64,000 nt of DNA. Origin: Gammaproteobacteria bacterium. Its GTDB lineage: Bacteria; Pseudomonadota; Gammaproteobacteria; Pseudomonadales; Azotimanducaceae. Position 1 is the stretch's first letter. Every line of letters starts with the position of its first letter. Below are positions 6,388 to 45,841 of the stretch, one piece after another. A program made the position numbers and the translations under genes. Location: positions 1-64,000 of the forward strand of contig JAPPAV010000148.1 in assembly GCA_026705345.1 (NCBI GenBank), read 5' to 3'. Below the pieces are notes generated by a model. That model saw only the letters and a program-made list of their open reading frames with translations. It had not been told where the DNA came from and ran no database searches.

Positions 6388-8127
6388 GTGAGCCTCAATG
6401 TCGATACGGCTTGGAGAGATCAAGCGCTTGGCGCCTTGGTTCTCGTCGCCTGTCTTCTCTGCGCGGGATGCGCGACCGTTGCCGCCGACCTGCCGCCCAC
6501 CTACGATGAGCTGGCCACGCAGCTAGCCGACGAACAGGCCATCGACGCGGAGCAGGTCATACGGCTCAGGGAAGCATTCCTGGCCACACCCGACTTCGAC
6601 GAACGCATCCGGGCGGTCACGCTCCTGGAACAGGAAATCCTCGGTCTCCTGCAAGTGGAACAGCCCCTGCGCCTTGGCCCGATCGGTTCCGCGACTCTCG
6701 AGCACTACCGCGCCAGTATCACCGGTCACCAAGCGCTCGCCGAGTTCTACCACCATGTCGACATGCCGGAACAGGCCGCCGTTCACGAGGCGTGGACCCA
6801 CGTCATCGCGGGCGCGGTGGAGACGACCGGCGACGGCACCCTCGACGCCCCCTACCGGGCATTGTCGCCCAACGAAGCGAAGGGATACCTCGGCACGCGA
6901 GAGCTGACGGAGGTGGGGTCCACCTACCGCCAGTCAGATGAACGTCCGTTCATGCTGTGGATCAGCGCGGCCCGCGACAGCCAACCGCTCAAGAACGTGT
7001 TCTTCGACCTCGACGGTCTCTACTCCGGCCTCGCGGAATCCGTCCGTCGCAAACCGACCACCGTCTTTCCCATCGGCCCACCTCGGTCCTGCAGCGAGTT
7101 GCGGGTATGCGACGCGTTCAGCCCCGAATCGTTCATCCACATACTGGCCGCCGGCAACGACACGGCCGCCCTTACCTTCCTGGGCTGGAGGGGTCTCACC
7201 CGGTTCAATGACGCCGTCGATGCCCTGCGCCTCGCGGCATGGTCCGGGAATGCGATGGCGAACAGGATTCTCGCGGAGTTGTGGCTACGAGCCGCATTCA
7301 ACACAACGCAGGCGTCCAAGGACCGCGACGAGTACCTCGTCAGTGCTGAACGGAACTACCTGGTGGCAATCCGCGCCGGCTTCGAGGACGCCATGTTCGA
7401 ACTCGGCAGGCTCTACGTCATGGGTACCTACGGCAGCGACAAGACCGCCAACGGGTTGCCGTTGATCTCGCGCTCGGCCGAACTCGACAACCCACAAGCC
7501 CTTCTCTGGTTGGGTTGGCGCCATGTACTCGGCGATTCCGTGGACCGGGATCACGAGCGTGCCGAACATTACTTCCTGCGCGCTGCCGAGATAGACGAGT
7601 TAGGCAAGCTCGAGTACGCCCGGTTCCTGATGCATCGGGACGTCGACCGGGGTTTCAACGAGCGCGCATTCCGTTGGGTTCGACAGTTCGCCCGGAATGA
7701 CAACGCCCATGCCATGGTCCTGATCGGGGATCTCTATGCCCGGGGATTGCACGTCGGGAAGAGCTTCCGGCGCGCCGGTTCCTGGTTCAAGAACGCGGTC
7801 AAAGCGGCACCCGATGACCCCTACCTGGTGAACGAAGTCGCCTGGCGCTTTGCGGTCACCCATCTACCGAAACTCCGCGACGAACGCTATGCGCTCGAGA
7901 TCATGGAGCGGATCATGGACGCGAGCGATGAAGCAAGCCGCAACCCGGCCTATCTCGACACCTTGGCAGCCGCATATGCCGCCAACGGCAACTTCGAACG
8001 CGCGGTCGCCGTACAGGAACAAGCCGTGGAGGAGGCGCGTGCCTCAGCCGACAACGACCTGCCGATCCTGCTCGAGCATCTCGAAGCGTTTCGGGCCGGC
8101 GAAGAGATCAGCGAGCAGGTTCCCTAG
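6388..8127 (+). CDS. Sel1/TPR-repeat lipoprotein-like protein
   Basis: A 579-residue protein that begins with a hydrophobic segment ending in LLCAGC, a probable lipobox, then a mature region starting CATVAADLPP. Residues from about 290 on contain repeated short helical pairs with the AxxxLG and GxxYxxGxxxxxD patterns of Sel1-like repeats, for example MFELGRLYVMG, LLWLGWRHVLG and MVLIGDLYARG. A C-terminal TPR-like pair (AYAANGNFERAVAVQEQA) follows. Such proteins scaffold envelope complexes. The GTG at 6388 is the best start, though its ribosome-binding site is poor. It lies just upstream of mnmH in the same direction. Confidence 0.7.
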   Translation: MSLNVDTAWRDQALGALVLVACLLCAGCATVAADLPPTYDELATQLADEQAIDAEQVIRLREAFLATPDFDERIRAVTLLEQEILGLLQVEQPLRLGPIGSATLEHYRASITGHQALAEFYHHVDMPEQAAVHEAWTHVIAGAVETTGDGTLDAPYRALSPNEAKGYLGTRELTEVGSTYRQSDERPFMLWISAARDSQPLKNVFFDLDGLYSGLAESVRRKPTTVFPIGPPRSCSELRVCDAFSPESFIHILAAGNDTAALTFLGWRGLTRFNDAVDALRLAAWSGNAMANRILAELWLRAAFNTTQASKDRDEYLVSAERNYLVAIRAGFEDAMFELGRLYVMGTYGSDKTANGLPLISRSAELDNPQALLWLGWRHVLGDSVDRDHERAEHYFLRAAEIDELGKLEYARFLMHRDVDRGFNERAFRWVRQFARNDNAHAMVLIGDLYARGLHVGKSFRRAGSWFKNAVKAAPDDPYLVNEVAWRFAVTHLPKLRDERYALEIMERIMDASDEASRNPAYLDTLAAAYAANGNFERAVAVQEQAVEEARASADNDLPILLEHLEAFRAGEEISEQVP

Positions 8128-43980: not shown

Positions 43981-45114
43981 ATGAACTCATCGGAAGTAAG
44001 ACCCCTCGACGGCGTCCTGGTGGTCAGCCTCGAACAGGCTGTTGCCGCGCCCCTGGCAACCTGCCGTCTCGCCGACGCCGGTGCGCGGGTCATCAAGCTC
44101 GAACGCACCAACGGCGACTTCGCCCGGGCCTACGACACGGCCGCCAACGGCCAATCCGCCTACTTCGCCTGGCTGAACCGGGGCAAGGAGTCCCTCACCG
44201 TCGACATCAAGAACGACGACGACCGGGAGCTCGTTCTGCGCATCCTTGCCAAGGCCGACGTGTTCATCCAGAACCTGGCCGTCGGTGCGGCTGCCCGGTC
44301 CGGCCTGGGGTCGGACGACCTGCGCGAGCGATTCCCGCATCTCATCACCTGCGGCATCTCCGGCTACGGCGAGACCGGTCCCTACGCCGACATGAAGGCC
44401 TACGACCTGCTGGTGCAGGCCGAGTCGGGCCTCGTTTCGGTGAACGGTGCGCCGGGACCGTACGGCCGGGTCGGCATTTCGGTATGCGACACGTCCACGG
44501 GGCTCGCGGCGGCGCTCGCCATCAACGAAGCCCTGGTCAAACGCCAGCGAACCGGACTCGGTTCTGCGATCAAGATCTCGATGTTCGATGTGATGGCGGA
44601 CCTGATGGCCGTGCCGTTGCTGCACCACGACTACCTGGGCGCCGGGCCCGAGCGAATCGGGCTGGCGCATCCGTCCATCACGCCCTACGGCGGATTCGTC
44701 ACCGGCGACGGCGTGACGCTCGTGATCTCGGTTCAGAACGACCGCGAATGGAAGTCGTTCGCCACCAACGTCATGGCGCGTCCGGAACTCATCGACGATC
44801 CCCGCTACGCGACCAATCCCGCCCGCCTGGAACGACGCGAGGTCGTGGACGGGATGGTGCAGGAGTTCTTCGGCCAGCACACCCGCTCGGAGATGGAAGA
44901 CAAACTGCGTTCCGCGCGAATCGCCTACGGCGCGGTGAACGACGTGACCGGGTTGTCGACACATCCCCACCTGCGCCGGCTGACGGTCGACTCGGAGACC
45001 GGCGACGTGGAAGTTCCCGCCCATCCGAACGCCGCCGCCGCGTCGCCCCGCTCGCCGCGACTGCCACGCCTCGGCGAACACAACGAACGTATTCGACAGG
45101 AATTCGGCACCTAG
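43981..45114 (+). CDS. CaiB/BaiF family CoA-transferase
   Basis: A 377-residue class III CoA-transferase. The catalytic aspartate is in MKAYDLLVQAESGL, and the CoA-binding start LDGVLVVSLEQAVAAPLATCRLADAGARVIKLER is characteristic. It moves CoA between two carboxylic acids by a mixed anhydride mechanism; the acids are not known. ATG 43981 fits. It leads a plus-strand run with the flavin-binding protein (8 bases later) and the selenoprotein gene. Confidence 0.9.
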   Translation: MNSSEVRPLDGVLVVSLEQAVAAPLATCRLADAGARVIKLERTNGDFARAYDTAANGQSAYFAWLNRGKESLTVDIKNDDDRELVLRILAKADVFIQNLAVGAAARSGLGSDDLRERFPHLITCGISGYGETGPYADMKAYDLLVQAESGLVSVNGAPGPYGRVGISVCDTSTGLAAALAINEALVKRQRTGLGSAIKISMFDVMADLMAVPLLHHDYLGAGPERIGLAHPSITPYGGFVTGDGVTLVISVQNDREWKSFATNVMARPELIDDPRYATNPARLERREVVDGMVQEFFGQHTRSEMEDKLRSARIAYGAVNDVTGLSTHPHLRRLTVDSETGDVEVPAHPNAAAASPRSPRLPRLGEHNERIRQEFGT

Positions 45115-45122
45115 GAGTCGCC

Positions 45123-45596
45123 ATGCCATCACGCCGCAAGCTGATCGAACTCACTGCCGACGAGGTCCGCGACTACCTGGACGCGGAGAAGACGCTGATC
45201 ATCGTCGGCAACGGCCACAACGGCTATCCCCACCCCATGCCGATGTGGTTCGCACTCGACCCCGACGGAACGATCCGCTGCACGACCTTCTCCAAGAGCC
45301 AGAAGGTCCTCAACTGGCAACGCGACCCCAAGGCGACGCTGCTGGTGGAAAGCGGGATCGAGTACGCCGACTTGAAAGGCGTCGTGATCTATGCGACGTG
45401 CGAGATCGTCGACGATCCCGACGAGGTCAGGGACACCCTGGTGGCGATCAACTCCCGGGGCCGGGACCTCGACGCCGGCGCGAAGACCAAGCTGCGCGAG
45501 GCCGTTTCGGGCACGGCCGCCAAGCGTGTCGTGCTAAAGTTCAACCCGAAGCGCTATGTCACCTGGGATCACGCCAAGCTGGGTGGCCGGTACTGA
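45123..45596 (+). CDS. Pyridoxamine-5'-phosphate-oxidase-fold protein
   Basis: A 157-residue split-barrel flavin-binding protein. LIIVGNGHNGYPHPMPMWFALDPDGTI and FSKSQKVLNWQRDPKATLLVE follow the pattern of the F420/FMN-dependent PNPOx-like family rather than true PdxH. It may bind FMN, F420 or heme. AGGAG lies six bases before ATG 45123. It is 8 bases behind the CaiB gene and 23 before the selenoprotein gene, so the three are probably one transcript. Confidence 0.85.
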   Translation: MPSRRKLIELTADEVRDYLDAEKTLIIVGNGHNGYPHPMPMWFALDPDGTIRCTTFSKSQKVLNWQRDPKATLLVESGIEYADLKGVVIYATCEIVDDPDEVRDTLVAINSRGRDLDAGAKTKLREAVSGTAAKRVVLKFNPKRYVTWDHAKLGGRY

Positions 45597-45619
45597 CACA
45601 CATCCGGAGGAACCAACAA

Positions 45620-45841
45620 GTGGACATCTCCATCACCTACTGCACTTCCTGAGGCTACAAACCCAAAGCGGTCAGTTTGGCTGCAAAGATCAAGGACACG
45701 TTCGGCGAGGATCCGTTCATCATCGAAGGAGCGGGCGGCATCTTCGACGTCAACGTCGATGGCAAACTCGTCTATTCGAAGCACGAGACCGGGGAATTCC
45801 CCGACGAGGACGCCCTCGTTAAGGAAATGCAAGCGCTGTAG
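45620..45841 (+). CDS. SelW/Rdx-family selenoprotein with in-frame UGA
   Basis: A 73-residue protein if TGA at 45650-45652 is read as selenocysteine. It starts at GTG 45620 with GGAGG nine bases upstream and reads MDISITYCTS-U-GYKPKAVSLAAKI, giving Cys8-x-x-Sec11, the redox motif of SelW/SelT/SelH (Rdx) proteins followed by the family's GYKPKA. The remainder, with GGIFDVNVDGKLVYSKHETG and FPDEDALVKEM, also matches SelW. A SECIS-like hairpin with GGUC in its loop begins 10 bases after the UGA. It is likely a thiol or glutathione-linked redox protein. Ordinary gene calling would miss it. Confidence 0.9.
45663..45680 (+). promoter_or_regulatory. Bacterial SECIS-like hairpin
   Basis: CCAAA (45663-45667) pairs with TTTGG (45676-45680) around the loop GCGGTCAG. 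The loop's GG falls 17 bases after the UGA; in E. coli fdhF the loop GGUC falls 18 bases after. It should bind SelB to place selenocysteine. Confidence 0.75.

Follow-up and report, generated by a model that had tools for sequence, protein, structure and literature searches.

Comparative evidence for a SelW-like selenoprotein gene with an in-frame UGA codon and a conserved SECIS candidate in a gammaproteobacterial genome

The window, the whole stretch of 64,000 nucleotides analyzed here, harbors at positions 45620-45841 what is almost certainly a working SelW-like (Rdx-family) selenoprotein gene, in which the UGA at codon 11 would be decoded as selenocysteine (Sec). The frame contains a single TGA, at codon 11, and its translation with TGA read as U is VDISITYCTSUGYKPKAVSLAAKIKDTFGEDPFIIEGAGGIFDVNVDGKLVYSKHETGEFPDEDALVKEMQAL, followed by the stop. 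The segment YCTSUGYKPKA exhibits the Cys-x-x-Sec motif and the ensuing GYKPKA that the original prediction had pointed out in a TGA-interrupted frame, and the ribosome-binding site and operon-like position that it proposed are likewise present. Taken as a whole, this prediction stands as to the identity of the selenoprotein and falls as to the placement of its SECIS hairpin. The features of the locus are the following:

43993-45114, + strand: CoA-transferase-like protein, two genes upstream of selW (best NCBIfam matches below their cut-offs)
45123-45596, + strand: PNPOx_N (PPOX-type) protein (PNPOx_N 45 bits, cut-off 28.1), ending 23 bp before the selW start
45606-45610, + strand: Shine-Dalgarno-like GGAGG, 9 nt 5' of the GTG, as read from the sequence
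45620-45841, + strand: selW-like selenoprotein gene, GTG start, TGA (Sec) codon 11, TAG stop, 73 residues
45650-45652, + strand: in-frame TGA, predicted to be read as Sec, second redox residue of the CxxU motif
45668-45684, + strand: conserved bacterial SECIS candidate, 7-bp stem (45668-45674 with 45678-45684) and GUU loop (45675-45677), the loop lying 22 nt after the UGA

The assignment to the family is supported by profile searches. Submitted to the SelW/Rdx family search that had been proposed for it, the 73-residue product matches the Pfam family Rdx (PF10262; 68.4 bits, cut-off 22.6, E = 6.3e-19) over residues 3-70, hence on both sides of the TGA as predicted, and TIGR02174 CXXU_selWTH (59.8 bits, cut-off 34.2). 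It scores 77.9 bits with NF041051 SelTWH_Campy and does not reach the cut-off of 88; the protein is thus a relative of this equivalog that stands outside it. Both redox positions of the CxxU motif, YCTSU, are invariant in 28 aligned sequences, in which U is printed as C. The AlphaFold2 model, built from 28 sequences, has a mean pLDDT of 90.5 and a pTM of 0.74, and a strand (residues 3-8) precedes CxxU. The best Foldseek match is the SelW-related structure 2fa8 (E 3.5e-7, TM 0.91), and the top 21 rows are all bacterial SelW-type crystal chains (TM 0.83-0.92), followed by mouse SelW, MIEN1, and thioredoxins. The solved bacterial SelW-related proteins 2fa8, 3dex, 2oka, 2ojl, 2obk, and 2p0g resemble the predicted fold with TM 0.83-0.92 over the query and 23-36% identity; in 2oka, the sole solved structure whose active-site residue was compared, the alignment places a Cys at the Sec position. 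A sequence search of the PDB reports seven distinct sequences at E <= 1e-3, including selenoprotein W (2npb) from mouse, whose domain is homologous by sequence (E 8.9e-6) and by fold (TM 0.65).

The TGA is retained wherever close homologues have been found. A search of 97 genomes, the own genome and 96 relatives, returns 50 matches at E <= 0.001 in 48 genomes. Exactly one TGA lies inside 40 of them, one per genome (E 2.1e-44 to 1.1e-12), and the remaining 10 are weaker than 1e-10 and carry no TGA, nine being free of any stop and one having a TAG and a TAA. Of 274 genomes sampled from the class, six have a match (E <= 1e-9), namely the own genome with its TGA and five without stops that are 38-42% identical. 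Distant homologues without a stop therefore exist, nine in the first search and five in the class sample, a grouping defined only by the absence of a stop. A scan of named genomes, with six search patterns none of which spans the TGA codon, gave 55 loci, reduced to 54 by the exclusion of one locus (L102) before all counts, and TGA occupies the Sec position in all 54. According to their titles, 41 of these are Gammaproteobacteria and the others Planctomycetota, Nitrospirae, Deltaproteobacteria, Lentisphaerales, etc. Two of the TGA-containing copies (L081 and L082) lie ~5.5 kb apart on the same contig (OX638341.1) of one Pseudohongiella MAG. Together with the window and 12 loci from the search of relatives, the set amounts to 67 loci, or 66 distinct ones once identical sequences are merged, and the TGA is kept in 66/66, along with an invariant Cys at codon -3 and an invariant Tyr at codon +2. 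Homologues ending at the TGA had been named as evidence that would speak against a selenoprotein; the close ones read on past it. The start position of these 66 loci is ATG in 49, GTG in 10, TTG in six, and GTC in one. For the 105 pairs formed by 15 close sequences, dN/dS beyond the TGA, with the hairpin set aside, is 0.13, and codons 2-10 as well as those of the hairpin have a dN of 0; judged from these substitution patterns, purifying selection continues beyond the TGA.

The presence of the gene follows that of selA, detected (E <= 1e-30) in 61/97 genomes: 39 of the 40 genomes with a TGA-bearing SelW have it, as compared with 22 of the 57 others (Fisher p = 3.4e-10). The exception, G055, has a TGA-bearing SelW and no selA found at E <= 1e-30. 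Within the family alone the contrast is weak (39/40 vs 17/21, p = 0.04), and much of the selA association therefore reflects lineage.

The hairpin that follows the TGA was examined on the same set of loci, in which the 54 nt from the TGA onward align without gaps (66 loci; 61 distinct sequences after merging identical ones for the pairing tests). The stem of the 45668-45684 hairpin begins 15 nt after the UGA. Its positions are paired in 97.0% of cells, as compared with 88.7% in shuffled alignments, none of 500 shuffles being as high, a comparison to be read with the caveat that related sequences can beat shuffles without any structure. Slid to other registers, the hairpin pairs in at most 49.2% of cells. 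Double-sided changes number 29 cells, of which 26 fall at a single pair (G-U, C-G, U-A, G-C, or U-G, depending on the locus), two at another, and one at yet another. As many further pair types as the stem displays also arise in 16/500 shuffles, and kinship inflates such counts. The lowest pair is unpaired in 7/61 distinct sequences, and RNAalifold reports the same hairpin, one pair shorter. The loop reads GUU or GUC in most loci, and its GT is invariant (66/66). The codon bearing it is AGT wherever it encodes Ser (61/61 loci), GGT in three loci (Gly), and CGT in two (Arg), while AGT amounts to 3.1% of the 128 Ser codons of six window genes. Synonymous diversity in the hairpin drops to 0.035 for the Val codon and to 0.0 for the Ser codon, as compared with about 0.3-0.7 for most of the remaining codons between -9 and +39; apart from these two, it is low at the codon for Cys (0.06), at the one that follows the TGA (0.11), and at two codons for Phe (0.19 and 0.23). 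On this comparative evidence, the loop GT and the stem are under RNA-level constraint.

The bacterial SECIS model given in a 2026 review (PMC13188914) comprises a loop of 3-9 nt, an upper stem of 4-16 bp, a G in the first two loop positions, a distance of 16-37 nt from the UGA, and an MFE <= -7.5 kcal/mol. The 45668-45684 hairpin agrees with its rules for the loop (3, GUU), the stem (7), the G (first), and the spacing (22 nt). As for the MFE, the values are borderline: the bare 17-nt hairpin folds at -7.1 kcal/mol and a 48-nt segment at -8.9, and the bare hairpin reaches -7.5 kcal/mol in 30/66 loci. Folding of the single 48-nt sequence gives no signal (z-score -0.07). Moreover, among the 1342 TGA triplets of the window (both strands, all frames), a strict-type hairpin follows five, the selW TGA included, and a loose one follows 191. 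Owing to this z-score and to the similar hairpins behind other TGAs of the window, neither this hairpin nor the one first proposed is convincing without comparison. The latter, CCAAA/UUUGG with GGUC in its loop (45663-45667 with 45676-45680), can be drawn, but it pairs in 78.7% of cells as compared with 78.9% for shuffled columns (61 sequences) and displays no excess covariation; the comparison thus gives it no support as the SECIS, and the overlapping 45668-45684 hairpin is conserved instead. An Rfam search yields a single match at the selW locus, to an unrelated family (E = 10), and, over the window as a whole, a single tRNA.

The genome (5.07-Mb assembly, 151 contigs; completeness 100, contamination 2.24) possesses the machinery for Sec decoding, the total absence of which had been regarded as fatal to the selenoprotein reading: selA, selB, selC, and selD are all present. 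The genes selA (526.6 bits, cut-off 267.9) and selB (374.5 bits, cut-off 242.25) are adjacent on contig C68 and overlap by 4 bases, and SelB matches the models for its GTPase, SelB beta-barrel, and winged-helix domains. About 1 kb downstream of them, still on contig C68, lies the tRNA-Sec gene (selC; 70.5 bits, gathering 47; anticodon tca). Its end is separated by ~25 bp from that of a phage-type integrase gene (L113:6287-6376 and 6403-7641, G000:C68), which suggests an integrated element with selC as its site. SelD (257.2 bits, cut-off 125) is a 721-residue fusion (L018:1393-3558, - strand) with a pyridine nucleotide-disulphide oxidoreductase domain, having CGGC and no Sec codon; Ndh-SelD fusions bearing CxxC have been described (PMC2398784). 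The mnmH gene, rightly announced for the window, did not appear among the 20 window ORFs scanned and surfaced in the search of the genome:

8213-9151, + strand: mnmH, tRNA 2-selenouridine synthase (TIGR03167, 338.4 bits, cut-off 219.75)

This gene independently points to the use of selenium.

At first sight, a TGA inside the domain suggests an Rdx gene disabled by a nonsense mutation, or else an error of sequencing in a Cys codon, from which TGA differs by a single base. A lesion or an error would hardly recur at the same codon in 66/66 distinct loci, drawn from many assemblies with titles naming several phyla, and the selection acting after the TGA argues against a decayed gene, so that a pseudogene or an error is extremely improbable. 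With TGA taken as a stop, the ORF listing retains inside the selW frame just one 54-aa piece, from TTG 45677, as if a short peptide stopped at the UGA and a separate gene followed. The Rdx match covering both sides of the TGA and the invariant Cys and Tyr codons flanking it contradict such a division, as does the lack, by eye, of any Shine-Dalgarno-like motif before 45677, leaving two separate genes next to no likelihood.

The frame would be equally open if the UGA stood for a different amino acid, whether through read-through or because the codon is reassigned throughout the genome. However, the neighboring upstream gene uses TGA as its stop (45594-45596), selA, selB, tRNA-Sec, and selD are at hand, the residue occupies a redox position of the CxxC/U motif, and the loop GT and stem are constrained at the RNA level; insertion of an amino acid other than Sec is therefore very unlikely. 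For the reading as a Sec codon, the established bacterial biology of delivery by SelB and Sec-tRNA via a hairpin (PMC1794560, PMC13188914) provides the mechanism: SelB with Sec-tRNA(UCA) would bind the hairpin and deliver Sec at UGA codon 11. The product would be a thioredoxin-like oxidoreductase, 73 residues long, whose redox pair is Cys-x-x-Sec. In the model, CxxU sits between the first strand and the first helix of the thioredoxin-like fold, a position that points to thiol/selenol redox exchange, and the protein most likely reduces or exchanges disulfide, sulfenate, or peroxide-type substrates.

SelW is probably not alone, and the idea that it is the only selenoprotein of the genome is rejected. 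An AhpC-TSA search of the genome returns 26 matches, four of which carry one in-frame TGA, located at the active site:

L112, G000:C47:97804-98184: AhpC-TSA gene with TGA, TGGU (TxxU)
L109, C137:35152-35544: AhpC-TSA gene with TGA, WUPFC (UxxC)
L110, C7:22470-22850: AhpC-TSA gene with TGA, WUPFC (UxxC)
L111, C84:1847-2209: AhpC-TSA gene with TGA, WUPYC (UxxC)

These motifs match families listed among bacterial selenoproteins, Prx with TxxU and Prx-like with UxxC (PMC9312934). Behind the TGA of three of the four lies a 6-8 bp hairpin whose loop begins with GU or contains it; in the fourth, the contiguous-stem scan gave a weak hairpin (-4.3), and a 45-nt segment folds at -17.8. The four genes are likely to encode further selenoproteins. 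The formate dehydrogenase alpha subunit is a common bacterial selenoprotein; its one match in the genome (L104:628-3618) is a Cys form (DTCARVCHSPT), although the genome decodes Sec. No CMD/AhpD-type protein is matched in the genome at E <= 1e-5. Besides SelW, this view of the selenoproteome covers the AhpC-TSA, formate dehydrogenase alpha, and CMD/AhpD families.

Upstream of selW, the product of 45123-45596 has its best NCBIfam matches with the PPOX/F420 type, below their cut-offs, and we infer that selW shares a transcript with this gene. Among the 65 non-window loci, some of which have little upstream DNA, SelW is adjoined by a PPOX homologue in 13 and by a CoA-transferase in 16, all of them from the nearer relatives. 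Close relatives preserve the order CoA-transferase, PPOX, SelW, which does not appear further out; the neighborhood is therefore lineage-specific and constitutes weak evidence on function. That the neighboring PPOX-type enzyme (flavin or F420) has, in the host genus, the Sec-containing SelW as its redox partner is a speculative and rather unlikely proposal. If true, the order CoA-transferase, PPOX, SelW would be the signature of a small module dependent on selenium, and a bacterial SelW would gain a specific client.

Bacterial SelW-like selenoproteins already feature in surveys of 2005-2008 (PMC1088965, PMC1242214, PMC1794560, PMC2398784) and, at 11.3%, come first among the selenoproteins listed by a marine survey of 2021 (PMC9402790); the present gene therefore adds to a known family. 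It does not differ in kind from the bacterial members as these sources present them (PMC1794560, PMC2398784, PMC9312934, PMC13188914), sharing the Rdx domain, CxxU, the UGA with a hairpin directly downstream, and the Sec machinery. What sets it apart is the host group, gammaproteobacterial and known here mostly from metagenome assemblies, and a SECIS candidate with a 7-bp stem and a GUY triloop, which lies inside the coding region, in contrast to the eukaryotic SECIS (mouse SelW) in the 3' UTR (PMC1088965). A literature search on selenoproteins and selenocysteine in sponge-symbiont Gammaproteobacteria found no papers. Since the 2026 review ranks the SelW-like proteins of bacteria as 'predicted with high confidence' (PMC13188914), there would still be something to learn from testing the product. 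The SelW genes of Epsilonproteobacteria were reported in 2015 to have been entirely overlooked in annotation (PMC4607533), and the present locus offers a clean example of a gene lost or truncated by tools that take UGA solely as a stop, while contributing comparative support for a SECIS element within a group of Gammaproteobacteria.
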